Virus record (IMG/VR): IMGVR_UViG_3300033146_002361
Location: 1 to 28,320 of that record
Direction: 5' to 3' (one strand)
DNA from: a virus
Length of the DNA stretch: 28,320 nucleotides
The notes beneath the pieces are model-generated. The model was not told where the DNA came from. It did not search any database and saw only the letters and a program-made list of their open reading frames with translations. Positions 2,009 through 28,320 of the stretch are shown here, one piece after another (positions within the stretch are counted from its first letter, which is position 1; the number at the start of each line of letters is the position of its first letter). The translations under genes were made by a program, and so were the position numbers.

Positions 2009-2251
2009 TTACTCCAAGTACCAAGCCACAGCTATCAACTCGTTGCCGGTGAGCTTACGGCGACCGCCTTCCCATAGAATCTCGATGTCTCCCGTGTCGA
2101 GAACTCGGTACTCCAAGTCGCAGGGATAGTCCATCGCTAGTCCCACGAAGTGGGTAAGGTCATCTTCCGGGTTTGCTAGGATCAGGGTGCGGGCGGCATT
2201 GATTTCACTGGCGATTTGATCTCTTGCGCGGTCGGTGGCTTCGGTTCTCAT
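2009..2251 (-). CDS. Small hypothetical protein, first gene after promoter copy 1
   Basis: An 80-residue acidic protein. Its ATG and SD (AAGGAGACCGAG) lie inside the 115-bp repeat, so its translation signal is identical to that of the gene at 6376-6792, although the proteins are unrelated after the start codon. The N-terminal half looks helical (RARDQIASEINAARTLI) and the C-terminal half looks like beta strands (LEYRVLDTGDIEILWEGG). The family is unknown. Being first after a near-consensus promoter, it should be among the most strongly expressed genes of the region. The function is not deducible. Confidence 0.65.
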   Translation of the reverse strand: MRTEATDRARDQIASEINAARTLILANPEDDLTHFVGLAMDYPCDLEYRVLDTGDIEILWEGGRRKLTGNELIAVAWYLE

Positions 2252-2362
2252 CTCGGTCTCCTTGTGGGCTTGGGGTTTTCCCCCCTCAACAACTCCGTCA
2301 ATATAGACTCTTTAACGGGTATTGTCAACCCTTAATTTTAACTTTTCTTGGATTTTCTTAGC
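2248..2362. repeat. 115-bp perfect direct repeat, copy 1 (promoter, leader, SD)
   Basis: This stretch is identical base for base to 6789-6903. On the minus strand it runs from GCTAAGAAAATCC through an AT-rich tract, the promoter, a leader containing GGGGGGAAAACCCC (a small hairpin) and the SD, and ends inside the first codons of the downstream gene (ATGA). Identity stops abruptly on both sides: the genes beyond it differ, and here the repeat begins eight bases after the stop of the DUF5131 gene. This fits a duplicated expression cassette kept identical by recent copying or gene conversion. Confidence 0.95.
2300..2328 (-). promoter_or_regulatory. Sigma70-type promoter, copy 1
   Basis: On the minus strand TTGACA (2328-2323) and TATATT (2305-2300) are separated by exactly 17 bp, a consensus -35 and a near-consensus -10. 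The 30 bases upstream are strongly AT-rich (AAAAGTTAAAATTAAGG) and could act as an UP element. An imperfect dyad, GGGT-N7-ACCC, overlaps the -35 and might be an operator, though this is inference. Transcription would begin near 2290 and read into the genes from 2251 to the left edge. Confidence 0.85.
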
Positions 2363-2370
2363 GTTCGTTT

Positions 2371-3156
2371 TTATTTCTTCGGCATCGGCAGAAACTCCCG
2401 TGGCCAGTTAGCATCCACAATGGAGGATTCCAGAAAATCAGGGCCGAACTCGCAGAGGAACGGAACCCGTTTGATTATGGTGTCCTTCACGAACACCTTC
2501 CAGCCCAGCTCCCGTGCCATTCCTATCTCGGCATCGATCTGGTGGGGCTTCAGTTTGCCCCCTTCGGCTCCGGTGAGGTCGCCGATGATCAGCCAACCGG
2601 TGCCAGGTGTAACGGGAAACAGTCTTCGAAGTTCTCCCATTGCCGGTTCATGCGAAACTACCACATTTTTAACCAATCCGTATCCATACATTGACTCAAG
2701 TAAAACAATCCTATCTATCGCTTCAACACTCGGGTGTTCGTAGCTTACCCCAAATACCACATTGTTGGGCAGGTCGTGTTCGTTGTAGTTGTATAGATTA
2801 CAGGGACGCTTCGTCAACACGATGAACTGGTGCAACGGGTACTTGGCACAATACTCCCACACCATCCGCTGGAAGTGTTCAGCCGTTATTGACAATCCAC
2901 CTGGCACCTTCCACGCCCCTGGGTTACACACATCCCCCATTGACATTAAGAACACCCGGCAAGGCTTAACCGGCGGCGGCTGCTCAAATCGCTCAGGGTA
3001 CACCGTCGGCTCAAATCCGTATGGGTACATCTTCCCACCCCTGGCACCAGTGAAGCGGTGAGCGATCTTTTGAGCGTAGCACCAGCCGCAACCTTTAGAG
3101 CAACCCGTTCCGGGGTTGTGAGTCTGATCACACCACTCAATCGTTGTTTTGTTCAT
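2371..3156 (-). CDS. DUF5131 family (phage Gp37/Gp68) protein, radical-SAM-like
   Basis: A 261-residue protein opening with TTIEWCDQTHNPGTGC, the typical start of the phage Gp37/Gp68 family (DUF5131). Cys19, Cys23 and Cys26 form a CxxxCxxC motif, the arrangement that holds the 4Fe-4S cluster in radical SAM enzymes, followed by WCYA. Further family-like segments are VFLMSMGDV (near 70), FIVLTKRP (near 110), FGVSYE and WLIIGDLTG (near 190), consistent with a TIM-barrel-like fold. The substrate is unknown. The ATG has a good SD (AAGGAGCGAT) and overlaps the upstream zinc-ribbon gene by 20 bp. It is the last gene of the 6.8-kb unit. Family assignment is fairly sure; enzyme activity is inferred. 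Confidence 0.85.
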   Translation of the reverse strand: MNKTTIEWCDQTHNPGTGCSKGCGWCYAQKIAHRFTGARGGKMYPYGFEPTVYPERFEQPPPVKPCRVFLMSMGDVCNPGAWKVPGGLSITAEHFQRMVWEYCAKYPLHQFIVLTKRPCNLYNYNEHDLPNNVVFGVSYEHPSVEAIDRIVLLESMYGYGLVKNVVVSHEPAMGELRRLFPVTPGTGWLIIGDLTGAEGGKLKPHQIDAEIGMARELGWKVFVKDTIIKRVPFLCEFGPDFLESSIVDANWPREFLPMPKK

Positions 3157-3328
3157 ATCGCTCCTTATCCCGTTTTTTAGTGCAATCCAGGCATAGCAGT
3201 AGCATTTTGTGGTGGGGTATTCCGTCTTTTATGCCTGTATGTTCAGCCACAAAATTAGCCGCCCGCATAAACAGGTCGCAGCCGCAACGGTCGCAGCTCT
3301 TCCCCTCCACTCGCACCATAACAATCAT
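3137..3328 (-). CDS. Small zinc-ribbon protein, 63 aa
   Basis: I place the start at the ATG at 3328, which overlaps the upstream stop as ATGA and follows GGGGGGAAG. A longer reading to 3433 would sit entirely over the preceding gene. The protein has Cys12-x2-Cys15 and Cys46-x2-Cys49 (CDRC and CLDC), a four-cysteine zinc ribbon or knuckle, with an extra Cys at 17 and a basic-acidic C-terminus KKRDKERYEQ. Such small ribbons in phage often bind nucleic acid or proteins; the target is unknown. It lies between another zinc-ribbon gene and the DUF5131 gene, with overlaps on both sides, suggesting coupled expression. Confidence 0.7.
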   Translation of the reverse strand: MIVMVRVEGKSCDRCGCDLFMRAANFVAEHTGIKDGIPHHKMLLLCLDCTKKRDKERYEQNND

Positions 3329-3690
3329 AACTTCCCCCCTTTTAGATGCGGTAATACTCCGATGCAAAGCCCACACAGGTAAAGGCTCCCGTTGAACGCT
3401 CTGCTGTCTCCTCTGAGTAGCTGTTTCCCGCACCGGTCGCAGTACCCGTGATGCTCAAAATCTCCAGTGTGGAAAGCCCAGGGTTTGCTTCGGTCGTTCT
3501 TTAGTTTCAGGTCAACCTCACCAAAGAACTCCTCCTCGCAGGCTTCGCAGTAGATGCGGGTAACCCGAGCTTTTCGCTCCTCGTTAGCCAAGTTGTAGGG
3601 GAGGTACAAATCTTCCAGCCGAACCATCGCTACCACGCTGCCTGAGCAGTTCGGGCATTCGTGGTTCGGGAGATTGCATTTAACAGCCAC
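3325..3690 (-). CDS. Protein with two zinc ribbons, 121 aa
   Basis: I chose the GTG at 3690 because TTGGAGGAAAACC sits just before it. The ATG ten codons earlier lies inside a perfect palindrome with no SD. Four CxxC pairs are visible (Cys12/15, 48/51, 84/87, 106/109), making two tandem Cys4 zinc ribbons: ECPNC with YCEAC, and YCDRC with LCGLC. The function is unknown; binding of nucleic acid or a protein partner is plausible. Its last codons overlap the next gene as ATGA, and that gene is also a zinc ribbon, so the two may have diverged from a common module or work together. Confidence 0.75.
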   Translation of the reverse strand: MAVKCNLPNHECPNCSGSVVAMVRLEDLYLPYNLANEERKARVTRIYCEACEEEFFGEVDLKLKNDRSKPWAFHTGDFEHHGYCDRCGKQLLRGDSRAFNGSLYLCGLCIGVLPHLKGGKL

Positions 3691-3709
3691 GGTTTTCCTC
3701 CAACTTGTG

Positions 3710-3730
3710 AGGGGACGCAATGCGTCCCCT
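3710..3730. other. Perfect GC-rich palindrome between genes
   Basis: The arms AGGGGACGCA and TGCGTCCCCT are complementary over ten bases around one central base. In RNA they would form a strong hairpin with a loop of about five bases. It lies between the stop at 3749 and the GTG at 3690. The sequence after it on the minus strand is CACAAGTTGG, with no U-tract, so it is not a standard intrinsic terminator. It could be an mRNA-stabilising or processing structure, or a protein-binding site. Confidence 0.6.
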
Positions 3731-3748
3731 GGGTTTCGTTTGGCTTCC

Positions 3749-4012
3749 TCAAGCTACACTCCACGGTATCTCAATCCTCGCAGCCCCTCTGTTGAACAGC
3801 ACGGCGTAAAGGCTCTTCGCCTCCAGCTCTTCCTCCAACTCGATGTGGGCATAGTAACGGTCTCCCCGCTTGTGCCTGATGGTCAACCACTGACCGTCTG
3901 ACATCAAATACAACTCAAACCAGCGGGGTGCATCAGGAACCTTTGAGCTGCCCACAAAACGACAGCCGGGGGCGTTGGTATCGTACAGCTTTCCTTGGAT
4001 GATGTTCTTCAT
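3749..4012 (-). CDS. Small hypothetical protein, 87 aa
   Basis: A basic, beta-rich protein with RWFELYLMSDGQWLTIRHKR near residues 30-49 and a helical EELEAKSLYAVLF segment near 60-72. No family is recognised. The ATG has only a weak SD (GGGACTGAG), and it begins ten bases after the previous gene stops, so expression may rely on re-initiation. It sits in the block of unknown genes between the two promoter copies. Confidence 0.6.
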   Translation of the reverse strand: MKNIIQGKLYDTNAPGCRFVGSSKVPDAPRWFELYLMSDGQWLTIRHKRGDRYYAHIELEEELEAKSLYAVLFNRGAARIEIPWSVA

Positions 4013-4022
4013 CTCAGTCCCA

Positions 4023-4346
4023 TCAGGTTAGCCGGATAGACTCTCTTGCAGCCCCCGGCGGTAAGGGTCTGTAGCTTTCCCTGGATTCGTACCGTTGTTC
4101 GTCGCAAACATCCTTGCGGTCTTGATCACGGGACGGTCGGTGCGACCCCAGATAGACATTCTGCCCCACCGGGAACACATTTGGATTCTGTTGGTATAAT
4201 TCGCTTAGCAAACGGACAGCTTCACCTCTGTATATCTTCTGCCGCCCAGCCCGCTCCTCCACCCACCTGTCCCTATCAACCTTGCGGTAGAAGGCTACAA
4301 TGGTTAAGGCTGCCCAGGGCGGGTTGTTGTCTATGGCGTACCGCAC
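4023..4346 (-). CDS. Hypothetical basic protein, 107 aa
   Basis: I prefer the GTG at 4346 (GGAGG four bases upstream, 16-bp overlap with the preceding gene) over an ATG at 4379 that would overlap by 49 bp. The N-terminal part (AALTIVAFYRKVDRDRWVEE) looks structured. The C-terminal part is highly charged and rich in Arg, Asp and Ser (SRDQDRKDVCDEQRYESRES) and probably disordered. The family is unknown. The start remains uncertain. Confidence 0.5.
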   Translation of the reverse strand: MRYAIDNNPPWAALTIVAFYRKVDRDRWVEERAGRQKIYRGEAVRLLSELYQQNPNVFPVGQNVYLGSHRPSRDQDRKDVCDEQRYESRESYRPLPPGAARESIRLT

Positions 4347-4579
4347 GCTACCTCCAACGCCTCGTCGTACTCGTTGCACTCAGCCCCCCGGTAGATTCCG
4401 GCGGCGTATGCTGCGATTACCTCAGCGGAGACTTTCTCTAGTGGGATTCCTGTGCCGTCCCTCAAGGCAAAGGTTCCATCACCAAAGCTCACGACTGTGA
4501 AACAGTCGTCGTAAGCCCCCTTCGAGTCCCCGTCTATGGAATCAAAAAATCGCTGGAGTTTGTCTTGGACTTTACTCAT
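4331..4579 (-). CDS. Small acidic hypothetical protein, 82 aa
   Basis: The ATG overlaps the upstream stop as ATGA, so translation is coupled. The sequence has an N-terminal amphipathic helix (SKVQDKLQRFFDSID), a Gly-rich strand region (TVVSFGDGTFALRDGTG) and a helical C-terminus (EVIAAYAAGIYRGAE). It is strongly acidic and of a size often seen in phage proteins that bind host factors, but no such family is recognised here. Confidence 0.6.
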   Translation of the reverse strand: MSKVQDKLQRFFDSIDGDSKGAYDDCFTVVSFGDGTFALRDGTGIPLEKVSAEVIAAYAAGIYRGAECNEYDEALEVACGTP

Positions 4580-5028
4580 TTGTATCCTTTCACTTTTAAT
4601 CTTCTTCCCTGCAGGTCAACTTCACACCCCATAACAGGAATGCGTACTTGATTTGAACATACTACTGATCCTGATCCACGGGTTCTAATTTCCATTTCAC
4701 CAGGATCATTTATGTGTAATACAGCTTTTCCTTCCTCCCCTACAATATATTTGTGCCAGGCTTTTTTTTTGATTGTGAACCACCCTGCACATCTGTTACT
4801 GCCGTGCAAAAGGTTACTATCGTAACATTGTGCAGATGCCGGACCAGAATCTAAGTCAAAGTATTCGCCCTTGATTTGATACCAATACAGTCCCCCATCC
4901 TCTGGACGGGCTGAGATTGATCCATTCTCAACCACCAACTCAATCCCACTTTTACCAGAGCCTGATAGCAGTATCTCAATGAGAGTTTCAGCAACCTTCT
5001 CCACTTCAACTGGTTCTTCCGGGATCAT
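4576..5028 (-). CDS. Hypothetical protein in an AT-rich island, 150 aa
   Basis: A strong SD (GAGGAGGTAAG) precedes the ATG, which overlaps the previous stop as ATGA. The N-terminus is acidic and helical (MIPEEPVEVEKVAETLIEI). The rest looks like beta strands with paired aromatic residues (GLYWYQIKGEYFDLD) and several cysteines. No family is recognised. Unlike its neighbours the gene is AT-rich, uses many AAA, ATA and TTA codons, and contains a run of nine A bases encoding KKK near residue 88. This compositional break suggests a more recent arrival by transfer. Confidence 0.65.
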   Translation of the reverse strand: MIPEEPVEVEKVAETLIEILLSGSGKSGIELVVENGSISARPEDGGLYWYQIKGEYFDLDSGPASAQCYDSNLLHGSNRCAGWFTIKKKAWHKYIVGEEGKAVLHINDPGEMEIRTRGSGSVVCSNQVRIPVMGCEVDLQGRRLKVKGYK

Positions 5029-5318
5029 CTTACCTCCTCAAACAGTGGAAACAGCCTATCCACCCACAACGCCCCCTGCGAGCGGAACTCGGTAAGGGTT
5101 ACCCGCCGGAGCCGGTCAAGCTGGCACTCCAGTTCCACCACGGTCTGCTCCAGCGTTATCAGCTCACCTATCAGGTGGCTGTTGATCTCGATGGTGGCAA
5201 GCACCCGCTCCTCCACCGTCTCAGCCTGTGCCACGATTGCCCAAACCAACGCTATCGACATAACCACCAGTATTGGTACGGCAACGGCAAGCCAGGCTCG
5301 CTCAAGTAGATTCTTCAT
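5025..5318 (-). CDS. Membrane-anchored or secreted coiled-coil protein, 97 aa
   Basis: I start at the ATG at 5318, which shares one base with the upstream stop (TGATG) and follows AGGGGTGTG. A longer open frame to 5567 would lie wholly over the cement-like gene. A short positive N-terminus (MKNLLERAW) leads to a hydrophobic stretch at about residues 8-31 ending in AIVAQAE, which could be an uncleaved anchor or a signal peptide cut after AQA. The rest is helical with Leu/Val heptad-like spacing (GELITLEQTVVELECQLDRL). A spanin-like or other membrane role is possible, but it lies far from the lysis genes. The function is unassigned. Confidence 0.6.
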   Translation of the reverse strand: MKNLLERAWLAVAVPILVVMSIALVWAIVAQAETVEERVLATIEINSHLIGELITLEQTVVELECQLDRLRRVTLTEFRSQGALWVDRLFPLFEEVR

Positions 5319-5746
5319 CACACACCCCTGAGAGCGGAGGTGATGGCGTCGAAGCGTACCCTCACACGCTGGCTGTTGATAATGTTCACGATTACCCCAC
5401 ACAGCACGCTGTAGCTGGTAGCGATATCCACGGTTACGTCGTCGATGCAATGGCAAGCACGACCAACGCAATCCTGCGACACGGGCACAATGGTGTCCAT
5501 CTCCACGCTGCCCTGTGTTACCACAATAACCGACCTGGCTCCGTCGTCGCCCAGACGGTTGTCGCAACCATCACGGGCGATTCCGATAAACCTGTACCCA
5601 GGCTTATTGGCGGCGGGAACAAGGTATCCTCGCTCGCTAGTGCAAACGAATCCGCCCTTGAATATCTGAGTTTTCCCTGCGACCTTCAAGGGTAGTTGCC
5701 AGCCAGAGGCGAAGTTCTCGCTGTACCTATCTTTTGTTAAAGCCAT
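5318..5746 (-). CDS. Capsid cement/decoration-like protein (DUF2190-like)
   Basis: This 142-residue protein follows the pattern I know from DUF2190 capsid cement proteins: an MALTKDR start, a short segment leading to IFKGGFVCT, then GYLVPAANKPGYRFIGIA, DNRLGDDGARSVIVVTQG and a C-terminal VRVRF strand. In that family the order is xxxGGLVxx, GYxVPAxxxxGxxxxGxA, DNxxGxxGAxSVxVxxG. Such proteins bind the outside of HK97-fold capsids. Its position is odd: inside the promoter-driven block of small genes, about 20 kb downstream of the capsid gene. The SD is good (AAAGGAGAACC). Family assignment is by pattern only, and the four central cysteines (residues 35-110) are unusual. Confidence 0.55.
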   Translation of the reverse strand: MALTKDRYSENFASGWQLPLKVAGKTQIFKGGFVCTSERGYLVPAANKPGYRFIGIARDGCDNRLGDDGARSVIVVTQGSVEMDTIVPVSQDCVGRACHCIDDVTVDIATSYSVLCGVIVNIINSQRVRVRFDAITSALRGV

Positions 5747-5755
5747 GGTTCTCCT

Positions 5756-6010
5756 TTATCTTACGGAAAATATCAATTTACAACGCGAGTACATCATTAC
5801 TAACTGGTCTTGGTAGTATCTTGGAACACCAAGTAGTGTCAGCGTAGAAGGGTTGTCGGTTAGATATTCAGAGTTGTCAGCCACAAACGCTGCTACTGCT
5901 CCCCGTTCATTTCTCATCTTACTTGGTTTATCAACCACGCCCTCTTGGCGGGCTAAGACGCAGTAATCGTATATGCCGCCAGCGTGGGTTACCTCGATAG
6001 TTATATCCAT
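5756..6010 (-). CDS. Small hypothetical protein, 84 aa
   Basis: An ATG with AGAGGATTTGAG upstream supports the start. The protein opens with beta-like sequence (MDITIEVTHAGGIYDYCVLARQ) and ends with a helical part carrying RYYQDQLVMMYSRCK. There is no membrane segment and no family I recognise. It lies nine bases upstream of the cement-like gene in the same unit. A role cannot be proposed from sequence. Confidence 0.6.
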   Translation of the reverse strand: MDITIEVTHAGGIYDYCVLARQEGVVDKPSKMRNERGAVAAFVADNSEYLTDNPSTLTLLGVPRYYQDQLVMMYSRCKLIFSVR

Positions 6011-6034
6011 CTCAAATCCTCTTCTAAGTTGCGG

Positions 6035-6322
6035 TTATTCCGGGTATCCGTCCCAGTTCCTCATCTCCTGCTCGTCGCTTCCGCGTCCACCGATCAATGG
6101 GGTGGCTTTGAGCAGGCTCTTCATTGCCTTGGATTCCAATTTGTGGTAACGACCGAATTTGTAATCATCCACCGCCCCTTTCAAATCTCTTGTGATGGCT
6201 GTACGGATGCTCTCCTGCCCTACCCAATAACAGGCAGCCAATAACCGTTGCTCAGGGTTGGCACTGTCGTCCTCGACGGCTGCTAACGCCGCTTCAAGTA
6301 GTTGTCCGACGGTTTGATTCAT
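6035..6322 (-). CDS. Small helical hypothetical protein, 95 aa
   Basis: The SD AAAGGAGAACAGC supports the ATG at 6322. Predicted helices dominate (TVGQLLEAALAAVEDD, EQRLLAACYWVGQESIRTAI), and an acidic, Gly-containing C-terminus follows. It is the second gene after promoter copy 2. Small acidic helical proteins at this position in phage operons often act on host machinery, but nothing here identifies a partner. Confidence 0.6.
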   Translation of the reverse strand: MNQTVGQLLEAALAAVEDDSANPEQRLLAACYWVGQESIRTAITRDLKGAVDDYKFGRYHKLESKAMKSLLKATPLIGGRGSDEQEMRNWDGYPE

Positions 6323-6375
6323 GCTGTTCTCCTTTGCCGTTTCCGGCGGTTACAGTATCGCTTGACTCACTGTGT

Positions 6376-6792
6376 TTATGCTACCAGCTCCAATACCTTA
6401 ACCTTTTCAACCTCAACCAGCTCGCCATTCTTAACAATCCAGAATCCACGCTCAGTCCGGCGGCTGCTTTCTTTGCAGCTCCACTCGTACACCGTTCCCT
6501 CGGTCAGCTTAACGGCAACCTCGATCTCACGGTAGGTGTTCCCAGTGGTGGTAACGTCGCTCTTGGCTAAGAACTTACGCTCCAGACCATAACGACCGCC
6601 CGTGCCAGTGATCTCAGCAACCCAGGCTTTGCCGCTGTGCGCGTACATCTCGACGACTCTGTAGCCGGTCTTGCGGCTTGCTGCCCACGCCATTTCCAAA
6701 CAGACGCTCATCAGGACTTCGCTCAGGGGGCAGTTCATCTCGGCGGCGGCGGCTTTACGGATTTCCCAGGCTTTGCTCATAATGGTGTTCAT
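6376..6792 (-). CDS. Hypothetical protein, first gene after promoter copy 2
   Basis: A 138-residue protein whose SD and ATG lie at the end of the second copy of the 115-bp repeat. The N-terminal third is helical (MSKAWEIRKAAAAEMNCPL). The middle and C-terminal parts are beta-rich, with aromatic and charged residues (KAWVAEITGTGGRYGLERKF, GTVYEWSCKE) and a Lys/Glu/Val-rich end. It resembles small proteins often found in phage genomes whose role is unknown, and I cannot name a family. An ATG four codons further in is a possible second start. Confidence 0.65.
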   Translation of the reverse strand: MNTIMSKAWEIRKAAAAEMNCPLSEVLMSVCLEMAWAASRKTGYRVVEMYAHSGKAWVAEITGTGGRYGLERKFLAKSDVTTTGNTYREIEVAVKLTEGTVYEWSCKESSRRTERGFWIVKNGELVEVEKVKVLELVA

Positions 6793-6903
6793 CTCGGTCT
6801 CCTTGTGGGCTTGGGGTTTTCCCCCCTCAACAACTCCGTCAATATAGACTCTTTAACGGGTATTGTCAACCCTTAATTTTAACTTTTCTTGGATTTTCTT
6901 AGC
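6789..6903. repeat. 115-bp perfect direct repeat, copy 2 (promoter, leader, SD)
   Basis: Identical to 2248-2362. It carries the same promoter, leader hairpin, SD and first codon, here feeding the gene at 6376-6792. The copies start 4541 bp apart in the same orientation, so homologous recombination between them would remove the block from 6792 to 2252 while keeping one working promoter. Confidence 0.95.
6841..6869 (-). promoter_or_regulatory. Sigma70-type promoter, copy 2
   Basis: TTGACA (6869-6864) and TATATT (6846-6841) on the minus strand have a 17-bp spacer and an AT-rich upstream tract, exactly as in copy 1. It lies just after the terminator-like hairpin at 6998-7026, which would insulate it from late transcription. 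It should drive the genes from 6792 down to 2371. Confidence 0.85.
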
Positions 6904-6997
6904 ATTGCTCAAAACCACTGCCCGCATAAATAACCGTGCAGCGAGCATCTTATTTTATGCTGTAGGCAACGGGTTTGATGCTGCCCGTATAAACCAC
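6904..6997. other. Non-coding spacer with short repeats and dyads
   Basis: No convincing gene is present on either strand. The 13-base motif CTGCCCG(C/T)ATAAA occurs twice on the plus strand (6918-6930 and 6981-6993), 63 bp apart. Between them AGCAT (6944-6948) and ATGCT (6957-6961) could form a small hairpin. The spacer lies between the lysis block and promoter copy 2, so it may hold regulator sites or a short RNA, but neither is shown by the sequence. Confidence 0.4.
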
Positions 6998-7026
6998 AAA
7001 ACACCCTCCGCAGTGGAAGGTGTTTT
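6998..7026 (-). terminator. Terminator-like hairpin after the lysis block
   Basis: On the minus strand AAAACACCTTCC and GGAGGGTGTTTT pair over twelve positions (one G-U) around the loop ACTGC. The 3' arm ends in TTTT followed by GTGGTTT. It lies 15 bp after the stop of the last lysis gene and before promoter copy 2, the expected place for an end to late transcription. The arms have A-tracts and T-tracts on both sides, so it could also work on the plus strand. Confidence 0.7.
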
Positions 7027-7040
7027 GTCTTGGTGGTTTT

Positions 7041-7342: not shown

Positions 7343-7534
7343 TCAACTCCCCCAGAGGAACCGGAAGGCTCCAAACCGATAAAGGGTTAATGCTGCACCG
7401 ACCACGACAAGGACAATGATTGCACAGATGTACATTTTCCTGTTGCCCGTCTTCTGCTTAATAGCCAGCACGAACACGCCGGTGATGATAGCCCCGACAG
7501 CGATTATCAGGGTGAGGTAGAGTTGGTGGGACAT
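7343..7534 (-). CDS. Putative holin, two membrane segments, 63 aa
   Basis: The ATG at 7534 has a strong SD (AACAGGAGGCATT). The longer frame upstream only overlaps the amidase and lacks such a site. Two hydrophobic segments (about residues 5-25 and 34-54) are joined by a positive turn, KQKTGNRK, and the end is short and basic. This is the class II holin layout: a small inner-membrane protein that lets the endolysin reach peptidoglycan. The gene overlaps the amidase 3' end by 28 bp and ends three bases before the XhlA-like start. Holins are poorly conserved, so the call rests on topology and position. Confidence 0.65.
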   Translation of the reverse strand: MSHQLYLTLIIAVGAIITGVFVLAIKQKTGNRKMYICAIIVLVVVGAALTLYRFGAFRFLWGS

Positions 7535-8118
7535 AATGCCTCCTGTTGGATCAAGTGAGTTAATCGTTTCCAGTCGAAGCTCGCACCGGGGTCTGGCTTG
7601 CCCCCATTGACTTCGTTGTGTCCCAGTAGTAGGAATTTGTCGGTGGCGGTGCGGAGCTGTTCTCGCCACCAATTCTTACCCTTGCCGCTCCGGTGTTCGG
7701 GGTCTGCCTCGGCGACGACCAGGTTGTGCTTGGTGGTGTACCAGCTAATCAGCTTTGCCAAGTTCCGGTACTGCTGGTCGCTGAACTCCGGTGCCGTTTC
7801 TCCTGGCAGGCTCTCCAGCTCGAAGCCGATAGACCAGGTGTTAGGGTTGTACTTCCGTCCCCACTTCATTCCAGCGTGGTAAGCCACCCGCCCCACCCGG
7901 CAAAGCTGAGTAATTCGCCCGTCCTTTGCCAAAACATAATGGCAGGAGACTTGGGTGTCGTCAGCAGTCGTCAGCCAGTCCACTGCCCCGTCGAAGCGTC
8001 CGGCTGTGTAGTGGATTATCGCTGCCCGAACGGCACGACGAGTATCCTTGTGAGCGTCCGTAGTTGGCTTGACATAAACATCAAGGCTCGGTGGGCATTC
8101 CGGTTTCCAGACCATCAT
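7507..8118 (-). CDS. N-acetylmuramoyl-L-alanine amidase endolysin (Amidase_2)
   Basis: A 203-residue endolysin expected to cut the amide bond between N-acetylmuramic acid and L-alanine in peptidoglycan. Amidase_2 landmarks appear in order: AAIIHYTAG (His36), VSCHYVLAKDGRITQL (58-72), YHAG (80-83), SIGFELES (Glu100), LLGHNEVNGGKPDPG (His167, Asp176). His36, His167 and Asp176 are the likely zinc ligands. There is no signal peptide and no clear extra cell-wall-binding domain, so a holin would be needed for export. The ATG at 8118 overlaps the upstream stop; a second ATG at 8115 has better spacing from GAGG and may be the true start. Confidence 0.92.
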   Translation of the reverse strand: MMVWKPECPPSLDVYVKPTTDAHKDTRRAVRAAIIHYTAGRFDGAVDWLTTADDTQVSCHYVLAKDGRITQLCRVGRVAYHAGMKWGRKYNPNTWSIGFELESLPGETAPEFSDQQYRNLAKLISWYTTKHNLVVAEADPEHRSGKGKNWWREQLRTATDKFLLLGHNEVNGGKPDPGASFDWKRLTHLIQQEALCPTNSTSP

Positions 8119-8332: not shown

Positions 8333-9085
8333 TTAGTTGGCAACCAGGATGTACTCCCAGCGGGCATTGACATCCTGACCGGATGTGGCAGCAACAGCGG
8401 TCATCACCACATCTGTTTTTTCTGGCACTGAGAATGGGCAAGCAAACATCTCCGCTCCGCCATTTTGATACCGTCCGGTAACCTGTTTGGCAGAGAATGC
8501 CCCATTTACCAAAGCGTTCCTGTATTTGAACATAACAATAACATCGTCCCGTTTCATGCAGTTTGAAAAAATCTGTGTTACGTACATCGTGTAACCAGCC
8601 GGAACGGTGTACACGCACATCTGGGTCTGTCCGATGGTCGGGAGTATTTTAGCCAGCACGTTTGCCCCACCGTGATTGACTGCGGTTATCGTCCCTACGT
8701 TCGCCCCGCCGACTGCTAGTCCTGTTCCATCCTGTCTTGCGTACATCCGGTGAAGTCTATAAAACTCTTCTGTTTCAAACTTTACCTTGCCTAATAGATT
8801 TATCGTTTGTACTTTGGGGTTAAGGTCTCCATCAAGACCCGTTAGGACAAGGTTCCACGCACCTGTCCCTGGGTTTTCGTCGTCGGCAGAAGAACTGGAT
8901 ATATCAAGGGTAATGGGTGCCAGCAGGAACGGGTAGTTACCCCCGTGATCCCAAATAACCTCTTCTGTTGTTCCCACTGACGTATTTCTGCCGAACTTGT
9001 TGCCGTTGGATTGTCCATCAACCAGCCCACGGGATATATCTAACCCGCTGTGAACTGTTGGGTTAAAGCTGTTTATGATCCCCAT
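8333..9085 (-). CDS. Putative virion structural protein, 250 aa
   Basis: The sequence follows a pattern often seen in phage structural proteins: NKFGRNTSVGTTEEVIWDHGG, then beta strands ending SSSADDENPGTGAWNLVLTGLD, LNPKVQTINL and AGYTMYVTQIFSN. I know this architecture as an all-beta virion-associated protein of unknown detailed role, usually near tail genes. The ATG shares one base with the upstream stop (TAATG) and has GGGGG in front. It lies between tail fibre and lysis genes, which suits a distal tail or adhesion accessory. No catalytic motif is seen. Confidence 0.6.
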   Translation of the reverse strand: MGIINSFNPTVHSGLDISRGLVDGQSNGNKFGRNTSVGTTEEVIWDHGGNYPFLLAPITLDISSSSADDENPGTGAWNLVLTGLDGDLNPKVQTINLLGKVKFETEEFYRLHRMYARQDGTGLAVGGANVGTITAVNHGGANVLAKILPTIGQTQMCVYTVPAGYTMYVTQIFSNCMKRDDVIVMFKYRNALVNGAFSAKQVTGRYQNGGAEMFACPFSVPEKTDVVMTAVAATSGQDVNARWEYILVAN

Positions 9086-17253: not shown

Positions 17254-17795
17254 CCAGCCTCAGTCAGGTTCATGGCCATGGGGATAAACTGCTTCCATTG
17301 CATACTCAATCCAAACACCCGCTTCGTCCCCTCAATGGGAGTCAGCTTGACGTTTTTCCAGACGACCTGCTCAATACCGAGCATTGACATGGTGTCGTGT
17401 GTTACGGCAAACGATCCCCGACGCTGGAGCAGCGCACTCAGCCTGGCAATCCGTTCCTCCATCGCAACTATCGGAGAAAAGTCGAGAGGCGCACCAAGTA
17501 TCTCGCCAATATAACTGACAATACTGATATTCCAACTTCCGGGGCCAGCCACATAATCCACGTCGCCAGCCACGCCGTCCATTTTTATCGTCGTGATACG
17601 ATTGGTTAGTCCAAAGGACAACGCCGCCGGGAACTCCCACAACGTGCCGTCGATAAGTAGATCGCTGTCTTCAGCGTCGTAGAGCCTTACCATCCGGTTG
17701 CGGCTGTTGAACAACTTCAGCTCGTCTTCCAGAAAATCCTTTAGGGCTTCCCCCACCGCTCCGCCGCTCACTAGATTAGCAATCCAACTTATCAT
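17250..17795 (-). CDS. Tail protein downstream of the tape measure, unknown family
   Basis: A 181-residue protein that starts with an amphipathic helix (MISWIANLVSGGAVGEALKD) and continues as beta-rich sequence (LIDGTLWEFPAALSFGLTNR, GVAGDVDYVAGPGSWNISIV), ending KRVFGLSMQWKQFIPMAMN. In other contractile phages a gene of similar size lies between the tape measure and the LysM-type protein and belongs to the hub or baseplate. That is my reading, without a named family. SD GGGAGGATGAC; ATGA overlaps at both ends. Confidence 0.6.
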   Translation of the reverse strand: MISWIANLVSGGAVGEALKDFLEDELKLFNSRNRMVRLYDAEDSDLLIDGTLWEFPAALSFGLTNRITTIKMDGVAGDVDYVAGPGSWNISIVSYIGEILGAPLDFSPIVAMEERIARLSALLQRRGSFAVTHDTMSMLGIEQVVWKNVKLTPIEGTKRVFGLSMQWKQFIPMAMNLTEAG

Positions 17796-20341
17796 GTCAT
17801 CCTCCCAGCCGCAGCGTCCTCAATGAATTGTTCGAAGGTCTCTCCAACATCGCCAGGCTTGGCATCACCTATCTCAACGACCATGTCGTCGAAGTAGAAA
17901 TTGTAAACAGTTCGGGGGGTTGAAGCACTGGAAGCACCAATTGATAAACGACCATCGTCTCCGCCAGCAGTACCTCCACCAGCGGGATCGGTGTCTTGTC
18001 CCTCACCAGCTTCGGCAGCAGAGCGCGCGTCGGCAATCTCAGCCAAAGTTTGATCGAGCTGACCGACCCCTGCGATAGCTTCCTGACCAATCGACACGTA
18101 AGCCAACCCTGTCTGTTCAGCCATTCGTGCAGCTCCAAGCAACTGACCGGCACGGAACATTTCACCGCTGGCAGCCATTTCACGGGCGAGCATCTTCAGC
18201 TCAAGCACCTTTCCCATCATGTTCTTGGCTTGCTGCTGGGCTTCCTGAGCCATTACGACGAGCTTGGCTTGATGAGCTAACACCGCCGCCTCAATGGTAT
18301 CCAGCTCGTCCCCAGAGGCTCCAGCGATATGCTCCTGGTACATAGACATGGAACTCAGCAGTGGCTCCAGAGTCTTGTAGAGACCGAGCTGCCCCTTCAC
18401 CGAGGCGATTTGCATATCCCTGGCTCTGGTTGCCTCGTCGGCAATTGCGGTTTGTAGCTCCATCATTCGCTCCATTGATTCCATCATTGGAGCGAATTCA
18501 TCGTTGGCTTGAAGTAGCTTATTAAACTCGTCCGTACCACCTTCAAAGAGGGCAGTGATGGCGTTATGAGCAGAGGCAAAATCCCCCTCCTCAATGGCTT
18601 TCGTTATACCCCCTGCGAAGTCCTCTCCAAAATCAGGTCCGAGTTTACCAATAATGTCTTCGAGTGCGTCCGAACTCATATCAGAGTGTATAAACGAGTC
18701 CATTACCGCCTGAGCAAGTCCCTTTGCCATATCTTCAGCCTTGGCAGCGAACTCAGCCTCGTTAAGCTCTGCCTCCAGGGAGACAACCGACTCCTCCATT
18801 TTCGCCATCTCAGCCAGCTTCTCAGCGTTGGCAATGGTGTCGTCGAGCAGACCGTTCTCTTCTTTCATGTAGCCGATCACGGTTTCGTGGAACGAGCGTA
18901 GAGCCTCCGCACCAGCGGCAAGTTCCTCGGCTGAGGCGTGAGCATCGTCGAAGCCCTCCACCAAGCGGTCAATAATGGCAACCACGGCGACAATGGCTAT
19001 TCCGAGCAGCCCAAAGGCAGCTGGGCCGGAGACACCGATGTTTGCCATTTTAGCTGCAAGCCCGGCGAATTTGCCGGAGAGCGCGCCTACTACTCTGGCT
19101 CCGGCTTGTACACCCTTTGCGATGACCCCGGCGAACTTCAGCACGCCGCCGACGGCGAACATAATTGCGCCGCCTATCATCTTCCACTTAACAATGAACA
19201 GGGCGAACTTAGCGATGCTTTTGATCAGCTCTTTGTTGTTCCGAATGAAGTTCATAATGCTTTTGATTACTGGCTGTAGCTCCTCAAACAGCTCGGTCAC
19301 GATAGGTAATATCGCCGAACCAATCTCAATGCCAACGCCCTGTAGCTGGTTGCGGAGGATCTTCATTTTAGCATCAACCGTCGCGCTCATCTTATCGTAG
19401 GCTTCCTCCACCGAACCAGCAGAGTCCGCCACTTGACCGAGAACCATCCTGAGATCATCGGAGTTGTTAACCAGTGCAGACACTGCCGACAACGCCCTAA
19501 TGTTCGGGAATGCAGCAGATAAGTCCTGAAGTGCGGGGGCGGAGGAAGACAATGCCTCAATCGCCCCCACAAAATCACCCGCTGCTACAGCGTCCTCGTA
19601 AGCCTGTCCACCGAGTTTGCGAAGCATCAAGTAAGCATCGTCGGTCGGCTTAATCATAGCTGTGATTGTGGAGCGAAGCCCCGTTATAGCCAAGTCAGTA
19701 CCCTGTCCCTGCTTCGTAAGCTCGGCAATTGAGGCGGCAATCTGAACGAACTCAAAGTTACCAGCGGCGGCAATAGGTATCAATCTACCAAGCCCCCCTG
19801 CGAGTTCGGGGAGCGTCGTCTTACCGTACTTCACCGTGGCGAAGAGCTGGTCGTTGATCCGATCCATCTCGGCAACTTCCAACCCATAGGCGTTCATAAT
19901 TGACGTGCCGACATCAGCAACGTCGTTAACCTCTGCCAGCCCAGCCGTTGCCAGCCGTGCAGATTTCGTCAACATCTCCATTGCCTGTGTTGGCGGCACC
20001 GACGCGGAGAGTATCTGGTACAAGGCGTTGGTTAGTGTGTCCCTGCTGTGAGGCACCGTCGACTCAAGCTCCTTGATCCCGTCAATGAGTCCGGGAAGAG
20101 CTTGCTCGGCGGTGCCTGATAATAGTGTAGAGACTTCGGCGAATCCCCGCTCGCTGTCGGCGGCGAGCTTAACGAGTCCACCGATGGCTGCTCCAGTTAC
20201 CGCAGCCGAACGCATCCAGCTTTTGCCAACCTGTTGTGCTTTCTCCCCTGCACTGGACAAAGCCTCCCCAAACTTTTGGGAGCCTTCGTCTTTGAACCCC
20301 ATCACGAGATTCAAAAAATAGGAGCGGGAGCGGTCAGCCAT
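17792..20341 (-). CDS. Tail tape measure protein (TP901 type)
   Basis: An 849-residue protein, the longest in the window. It opens with coiled-coil-like sequence and carries the TP901 tape-measure core at about residues 60-330: ERGFAEVSTLLSG, NALYQILSASVPPTQAMEML, ATAGLAEVNDVADVGTSIMN and TTLPELAGGLGRLIPIAA. Hydrophobic segments at about 375-460 (IAKFALFIVKWKMIGGAIMF, GLLGIAIVAVVAIID) probably enter the host membrane during DNA entry. A long helical part follows. It sets tail length; by the usual 1.5 angstrom per residue the tail would be about 125 nm. It starts one base after the chaperone extension stop. Confidence 0.95.
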   Translation of the reverse strand: MADRSRSYFLNLVMGFKDEGSQKFGEALSSAGEKAQQVGKSWMRSAAVTGAAIGGLVKLAADSERGFAEVSTLLSGTAEQALPGLIDGIKELESTVPHSRDTLTNALYQILSASVPPTQAMEMLTKSARLATAGLAEVNDVADVGTSIMNAYGLEVAEMDRINDQLFATVKYGKTTLPELAGGLGRLIPIAAAGNFEFVQIAASIAELTKQGQGTDLAITGLRSTITAMIKPTDDAYLMLRKLGGQAYEDAVAAGDFVGAIEALSSSAPALQDLSAAFPNIRALSAVSALVNNSDDLRMVLGQVADSAGSVEEAYDKMSATVDAKMKILRNQLQGVGIEIGSAILPIVTELFEELQPVIKSIMNFIRNNKELIKSIAKFALFIVKWKMIGGAIMFAVGGVLKFAGVIAKGVQAGARVVGALSGKFAGLAAKMANIGVSGPAAFGLLGIAIVAVVAIIDRLVEGFDDAHASAEELAAGAEALRSFHETVIGYMKEENGLLDDTIANAEKLAEMAKMEESVVSLEAELNEAEFAAKAEDMAKGLAQAVMDSFIHSDMSSDALEDIIGKLGPDFGEDFAGGITKAIEEGDFASAHNAITALFEGGTDEFNKLLQANDEFAPMMESMERMMELQTAIADEATRARDMQIASVKGQLGLYKTLEPLLSSMSMYQEHIAGASGDELDTIEAAVLAHQAKLVVMAQEAQQQAKNMMGKVLELKMLAREMAASGEMFRAGQLLGAARMAEQTGLAYVSIGQEAIAGVGQLDQTLAEIADARSAAEAGEGQDTDPAGGGTAGGDDGRLSIGASSASTPRTVYNFYFDDMVVEIGDAKPGDVGETFEQFIEDAAAGRMT

Positions 20342-27224: not shown

Positions 27225-27249
27225 AGATGTTCTCCTCTCTGTTTGTTTA

Positions 27250-27270
27250 GGGGCGGGGGTTGCCCGCCCC
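27250..27270 (-). other. GC-only hairpin after the capsid gene
   Basis: GGGGCGGG pairs with CCCGCCCC across the loop CAACC on the minus strand, 13 bases after the capsid stop. The next bases are TAAACAAAC, without a U-tract, so full termination is unlikely. A partial terminator or a mRNA 3'-end protector that raises capsid yield is plausible. The SD of the next gene lies about 14 bases downstream. Confidence 0.55.
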
Positions 27271-27283
27271 TTTATGTCTTCGA

Positions 27284-28320
27284 CTACGGAGCATCCCAAC
27301 CCATCACGATGCGGTTGTGGAGCGGGGTGTACCAGCCGATGTCGGCGTGGAGATTGAAGATCGTACCCTCGTGGTCGTTGTCAAAACGACTATAGAGTCG
27401 GATTGAATCCCACACACGAGCGGAGATGTTTTGACCATTCATCAGTAGGATGTACTGAGCAGGGAACTTGTCCACACCAACCATCGGCATACCAAGCACC
27501 TGTGGAACAGCCTTGACACCCTCAATCTGGTACTTGTCTGCCTGTGGCGTTGCTGAACCAGTCAGCTCGGCGAGGTAGTTGGCACGGTCTCGCTTGGACA
27601 TCAGCCAGATCATACCGTCCAAGTCTGGAATGTCAGCACTAACGCCCGTGCCGTAGATGCTGGAGAACGCACCATCGACCTTTGAGCCATCGCTGGGATC
27701 AACATAGTCTTTGTATACCCAGTTGGCGTAGGTTCCCAGATCCTCGTCGTTAACGTCTGCACTGGCCTTGTAGTCCACCAGCATACCGTCGAGGAGTTTC
27801 ACGAATGGATCGGAACTGGAAGTATCACCGTTGATAATCAAGTCCTGGAAGTCCCGACCAAACTTCTTGGCCATCATCTGGTTAGCCCAGGTGAGGATGT
27901 TACCCTGCTTGAGGTTACGCTTAACCATCTCCCAAGGAATGTTAATCATCATGGACACTTTGCGGGTAGTTCCTTCGCCGCTGGTGACCACCGGGGTGTA
28001 GCCCTCGCTGGGTTTCTGCCACTCGCCACCGGCACGCAGCTGACGATCTTCCCATTCAAGCATGTTTGCTTTCCAAGTGGGAGTGCTGGTTACGCCGTAG
28101 TCGATCAGGGGCAACAGGTTAGCCCCCAGCTGAGTAAGATCGACGAAGTCGGAAAGCTCCTCGTCGGGAATGGCTCCACCGCCACTCAGGTGAGAGGTAT
28201 CAAACACGCCCTCAATTGCTCGCTTGACTCCGGCACGCTGTCCAAAGCCAGACATAACCAGTGTAGCCATAGCCCTGGCGGTGGCGGGATTGGTCTTAGC
28301 GAACTTCTGATCAGGTGTCA
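27284..28320 (-). CDS. Major capsid protein, P2 family (HK97 fold), 5' end cut
   Basis: The frame is open to the right edge. An ATG at 28270 exists, but the 16 codons before it read as coding (PDQKFAKTNPATARA) with no SD at that ATG, so the true start lies beyond the window. The visible part has at least 344 residues. P2-family landmarks are FVDLTQLGANLLPLIDYGVT near the start, VSMMINIPWEMVKRNLKQGN, DLIINGDTSSSDPFVK, and DLDGMIWLMSKRDRANYLAE followed by VLGMPMVGVDKFPA, NGQNISARVWDSIRLYSRF. These match the E-loop/A-domain order of HK97-fold shells. It forms the icosahedral capsid. Confidence 0.85.
   Translation of the reverse strand, partial: TPDQKFAKTNPATARAMATLVMSGFGQRAGVKRAIEGVFDTSHLSGGGAIPDEELSDFVDLTQLGANLLPLIDYGVTSTPTWKANMLEWEDRQLRAGGEWQKPSEGYTPVVTSGEGTTRKVSMMINIPWEMVKRNLKQGNILTWANQMMAKKFGRDFQDLIINGDTSSSDPFVKLLDGMLVDYKASADVNDEDLGTYANWVYKDYVDPSDGSKVDGAFSSIYGTGVSADIPDLDGMIWLMSKRDRANYLAELTGSATPQADKYQIEGVKAVPQVLGMPMVGVDKFPAQYILLMNGQNISARVWDSIRLYSRFDNDHEGTIFNLHADIGWYTPLHNRIVMGWDAP

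Follow-up and report, generated by a model that had tools for sequence, protein, structure and literature searches.

The viral contig analysed here (the window), which takes up the whole of its linear, 28,320-base virus record, carries two identical copies of a 115-bp unit, each in front of a different set of small genes beyond the lysis region, and we think it probable that this is a strong host-polymerase promoter with its leader, duplicated by recombination and common to two neighbouring accessory operons. The unit would consist of a strong promoter for the host housekeeping RNA polymerase, a short leader and a ribosome-binding site; recombination would have copied it, and it would now head both a Gp111-led and an 80-aa-led operon. 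Judged by comparison with other loci, the arrangement fits a wider and little-studied pattern that recurs among phages with a Gp111-family gene, which tend to repeat the Gp111 promoter before a second set of small genes nearby, the window being one such case and not a one-off.

Pairwise comparison of positions 2248–2362 (copy 1) and 6789–6903 (copy 2), both on the minus strand, gave 115 of 115 identical bases, as an earlier note on this DNA had reported for two copies in the same orientation. The identity stops abruptly at both edges, with 0 more bases matching on either side, and with mismatches permitted the repeat grows only to 123 nt at 98% identity. A repeat scan found the pair to be the sole direct repeat of such size in the window, and chance cannot give an exact 115-base match between unrelated places in 28 kb. 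The repeat stops at the ATG and the genes behind it differ, which supports the proposal that a promoter-leader-SD unit, and not a gene, was copied. The first gene behind copy 2 (6376..6792, minus strand) encodes a 138-aa member of the Phage_Gp111 family (PF07410; 40.9 bits in Pfam, gathering cut-off 27.1), whilst that behind copy 1 (2009..2251, minus strand) encodes an 80-aa protein to which ORF and family searches assigned no known family; with no family in common, the two proteins are unrelated, as first described. The window, although the whole record, is an incomplete genome, so more copies of the cassette are possible in the missing part.

Each copy holds a TTGACA-17-TATATT core, located by motif scan on the minus strand at 2300..2328 in copy 1 and at 6841..6869 in copy 2, where an AT-rich tract lies upstream at 6870–6903. 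The pattern TTGACA-N15..19-TATANT occurs twice in the window against 0.02 expected, both occurrences being the cassette copies, and these are the two top sigma70-like sites of the window at 15.5 bits (next best 11.4); the core, SD and ATG ascribed to each copy were all present. From the inferred start site, a leader with SD and ATG is predicted at 2249..2293 in copy 1 and at 6790..6834 in copy 2 (minus strand), the latter folding into an imperfect hairpin with a GGGGGGAAAACCCC core ahead of the SD AAGGAG. Trimmed to the assumed transcription start the leader folds at −16.3 kcal/mol (z −2.55) with the SD partly paired, but once the first coding bases are folded along with it the structure is unexceptional (z 0.22). 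The small leader hairpin of the earlier note therefore holds for a transcript folded from the assumed start, vanishes as exceptional once the coding start is included, and is the weak point of the unit. An Rfam search returned no match.

All annotated genes of the window and both cassettes read on the minus strand, and from right to left the order is capsid (27284–28270), head-tail adaptor, tape measure (17792–20341), baseplate genes, endolysin/amidase (7507..8118, minus strand), a strong hairpin and copy 2. This hairpin (6991..7039, minus strand; −31.9 kcal/mol, z −5.07), which separates copy 2 from the lysis region, is likely, on its predicted fold and position, to be the terminator of the late operon. 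If the late transcript ends there, as it probably does, both accessory blocks would be expressible apart from the late genes and in step with one another. Copy 2 heads the Gp111 gene and about ten small genes, including the zinc-ribbon-like proteins, a phrog_1731 ‘virion structural protein’ (5318..5746, minus strand, by PHROG match; the cement-like gene of the earlier note) and, as the last gene of the 4.5-kb inter-copy block, a DUF5131 protein (PF07505 in Pfam; 2371..3156, minus strand). Copy 1 starts 8 bases past the DUF5131 gene and heads the 80-aa gene, followed by more small genes up to the contig end. The terminators listed for the window included no convincing candidate behind either block. 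An insertion sequence or transposon was considered and rejected, there being no inverted repeats of at least 25 nt in the window and no transposase among the families found. The DUF5131 protein matches two PADLOC candidate-defence models (PDC-M41B, E 4e-26; PDC-M30B, E 2e-25), and a DUF5131 gene is also carried by a Methanomicrobiales virus. Elsewhere in the window, a GC-rich terminator-like hairpin (27249–27271, plus strand; 9 pairs, 8 of them G-C) adjoins the capsid gene on the strand opposite to the genes, and the phrog_8198 protein at 8333–9085 (minus strand) shares 30–34% identity with proteins annotated as virion or tail-fibre in Synechococcus cyanophages and in the spring-water virus MW202879.

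A search for the 115-bp unit elsewhere, as the earlier note had suggested, gave no copy in the public sets searched, which is not proof of absence. Neither an exact 33-mer nor a relaxed 21-base cassette pattern matched the viral contigs searched, the leader matched none of the genome contigs searched, and blastn of the cassette in phages and plasmids gave nothing convincing; the only matches were weak (E 0.03), fell in AT-rich promoter DNA of Staphylococcus phages and were judged to be chance or convergence. No DNA relative of the window was found in the phage records searched, and its capsid, endolysin and sheath-position proteins led to no close relatives. As no copy of the cassette was available, the comparison was run through the Gp111 gene instead.

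Gp111-family loci were gathered by protein similarity alone, never by repeats, and the 49 testable loci were reduced to 38 by dropping near-identical ones; they are mostly from Bacillota phages and prophages, the named hosts being largely Paenibacillus, Bacillus, Streptococcus and Lactobacillus. For every Gp111 gene, a comparison was made between the 120 nt preceding it and the same strand of both 5-kb flanks, with shuffled versions as a reference, and a repeat was called at a score of at least 18 and p ≤ 0.03, a cut-off chosen after the first cases had been seen. By this measure 20 of the 38 loci (18 without the marginal L006 and L007) had a same-strand repeat of the upstream region no more than 5 kb away, whilst 18 had no repeat. 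Among 598 other ORFs of the same loci, scored with the same cut-off, 37 (6%) had a repeat, as did 7 of the 68 (10%) whose promoter scored 10 bits or more, giving an excess for Gp111 of Fisher 4e-13 against all controls and 4e-6 against the promoter-bearing ones. The contrast is conservative, because some control matches (e.g. one of 77.6 in the window) seem to arise from these very cassettes on the opposite strand. Within 120 nt, 34/38 Gp111 genes but only 68/598 control ORFs had a sigma70-like promoter scoring 10 bits or more (Fisher 2e-25). The earlier note had imagined a modular slot with different blocks behind one signal: the idea of one signal before several blocks is backed independently by the Gp111 loci of other phages, with a repeat in 20/38 against 6–10% of controls. 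In the window phage, for which the searches found no close relative, the swapping of blocks behind the cassette and the loss of the 4.5-kb block by recombination between the copies, which the note had also raised, are hypothetical.

In 19 of the 20 repeat-bearing loci the second copy lies downstream, before an unrelated small gene, at a spacing of 0.4–2 kb elsewhere and 4.4 kb from the Gp111 start in the window. The genes behind the second copies are small, and two families recur among the loci: one of 53–56 aa (L013, L023, L032, L037 and L046) and another in L015, L025 and L044. Only one second-copy gene received a confident Pfam name, DUF739, and this is most likely that of Streptococcus phage Sfi19 (L006). 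Sfi19 also contains a 72-nt repeat of 99% identity (6149–6220 and 6925–6996) which ends in a terminator-like inverted repeat and brackets a gene region of 18-bp tandem repeats, a regulatory-looking unit duplicated around an accessory gene. A limited literature search did not turn up the Gp111 twin-promoter pattern. The pattern also bears on the integrity of the contig. The record is an IMG/VR virus contig, and the second copy could in principle have been made when short reads were joined. We regard this as very improbable, because the passage from each copy into the gene behind it is smooth, with an SD and an ATG in frame, and because the same layout is present in sequenced isolates, such as those of Paenibacillus (L016 and L017) and Bacillus (L023), which makes an artefact an unneeded explanation.

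The extent of the repeat differs between loci. In most, the repeated part is the promoter only, from about −90 to −20, without leader and SD; it reaches the start codon only in the window, L003, L009 and L054, and nearly so, but weakly, in L006. The gut phage MT835524 (L009), which is unrelated, possesses three units of ~110 nt ending at the ATG, before three unrelated genes, each with an AT tract, TTGACA, TATAAT, a GGGGC-GCCCC-type leader and an SD.

The Gp111 protein itself is uneven in its conservation. Across L003–L055 the first 38–40 residues are strongly conserved (MKNVMxRAWEIAKxxxxKFGGKVKEYFAxALxMAWAExK) and the rest is widely divergent, a layout that, in these alignments, resembles one shared N-terminal module joined to interchangeable partners. 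The predicted structure of the window protein has two N-terminal helices and a beta-rich domain (pLDDT 79.8), with no convincing fold match among solved structures, and its top viral structure match is an uncharacterised archaeal-virus protein. The cassette could be chiefly a patch of homology through which phages acquire, lose or trade gene blocks, shared expression being a by-product. Such an exchange anchor would be in keeping with the perfect identity, its abrupt ends and the unrelatedness of the genes that follow the two copies, and with the kept N-terminus and differing C-terminal parts of Gp111, and PeSL cassettes have been described as mediating gene shuffling between related T4-like phages (PMC4503421). 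Yet neither a relative with a different block nor a single-copy variant was found in the sets searched, and in most other loci the repeat is too short and diverged for efficient homologous exchange, so we consider this explanation unlikely, if worth keeping in mind.

Alternatively, the copies may be kept alike because a single repressor of the phage, perhaps a product of the module, has to act on both operons, in the way that Aca proteins control anti-CRISPR operons. Such a shared operator draws its support from the other loci: a core palindrome (p ≤ 0.05) occurs in 17 of the 36 Gp111 promoters analysed against ~2 expected, and is often kept in the second copy (18/18 in L035, 20/20 in L043, 15/16 in L003), a pattern which suggests shared repression there. 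By contrast, no palindrome in the window promoter reached significance (p 0.55 and 0.69), no helix-turn-helix family was present in the ten window proteins scanned with Pfam, and the Gp111 model offered no confident match to a solved structure. A shared operator is less likely for the window than for the other loci, and as an account of the window cassette we find it decidedly doubtful. The reading we prefer for the window, as the simplest, remains a strong host-polymerase promoter and leader placed before two accessory operons. The identity of the copies, the order of the genes, the hairpin and the enrichment across loci are observed, and promoter activity, timing, co-expression and copying by recombination are inferred.

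The closest known idea is that of the promoter-early stem-loop (PeSL) cassettes of T4-type phages, reportedly the subject of work by Arbiol et al. in 2010 and Comeau et al. in 2014, which are said to include a stem-loop terminator inside the repeated unit and to occur in many copies in plastic T4-like regions. PeSLs are repeated strong sigma70-like promoter units in regions of small non-essential genes and have been tied to gene shuffling (PMC4503421). The cassette resembles both PeSLs and moron promoters but lacks what defines a PeSL. Like a PeSL, every copy in the window has a strong predicted sigma70-like promoter, but the repeat spans from the AT-rich tract to the start codon without a terminator, and the terminator-like hairpin at 6991–7039 lies outside the repeat and at copy 2 only, none being listed just upstream of copy 1; there are, moreover, two copies in an incomplete contig, which has no T4-like genome match. 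The likeness to morons lies in the position of the accessory genes, past the lysis cassette, with their own predicted promoter and a hairpin separating them from the late operon, and in the Gp111 homologues that occupy this place in phages of S. thermophilus and Lactobacillus. A classical moron is a single unit, whereas the window uses one promoter twice and has no terminator found behind either block. Cluster K mycobacteriophages carry the SAS, a 13-bp RBS-like motif (GGGATAGGAGCCC) in 11–19 copies at the start codons of unrelated non-structural genes, and the ESAS with 17-bp inverted repeats (PMC3203893). The window is like these in that a repeated element precedes unrelated genes outside the structural region, but its cassette is a promoter unit of 115 bp, present twice, and lacks both GGGATAGGAGCCC and an ESAS motif. 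In archaeal viruses, a conserved early regulatory sequence common to many unrelated small genes has served to predict anti-defence genes (PMC11065993), and bacterial acr-aca promoters have operator repeats inside the core (PMC9410906). One regulatory signal before many unrelated small genes is common to these systems and the window, but the core promoter of the window has no inverted repeat, and neither an Aca nor a known anti-defence gene was identified there.

The position of the Gp111 gene gives some context. In Streptococcus phage Sfi19 and Lactobacillus phage phiPYB5 it comes just after the lysin gene, in LFP01 it is close by, and the S. thermophilus literature treats this post-lysin place as the lysogenic conversion module (PMC3952083). 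The idea that Gp111 always marks the place after lysis was rejected, because other genes precede it in many loci of Bacillales. Taken further, Gp111 loci might be uncharacterised accessory regulons, with a conserved N-terminal domain, exchangeable C-termini and a second operon under the same promoter, serving host takeover or counter-defence; we offer this speculatively and think it rather improbable as a whole. Were it true, the promoter copy could be used as bait for such genes. Small genes without a known role fill much of phage genomes, and a repeated promoter is a sequence handle by which to group them, allowing co-expression to be predicted and test candidates to be picked, as in archaeal viruses (PMC11065993); the Gp111 pattern would permit such a search in Bacillota phages and prophages. 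The window repeat alone is of modest interest, and the twin-promoter pattern of Gp111 loci is worth testing.

Two further phage contigs, found through a tail-region protein of the window, exhibited repeated promoters: L005 (2014–19542) and L004 (3479–6222) contain up to six copies of a sigma70-like promoter segment with a GGTAT...ATACC palindrome.
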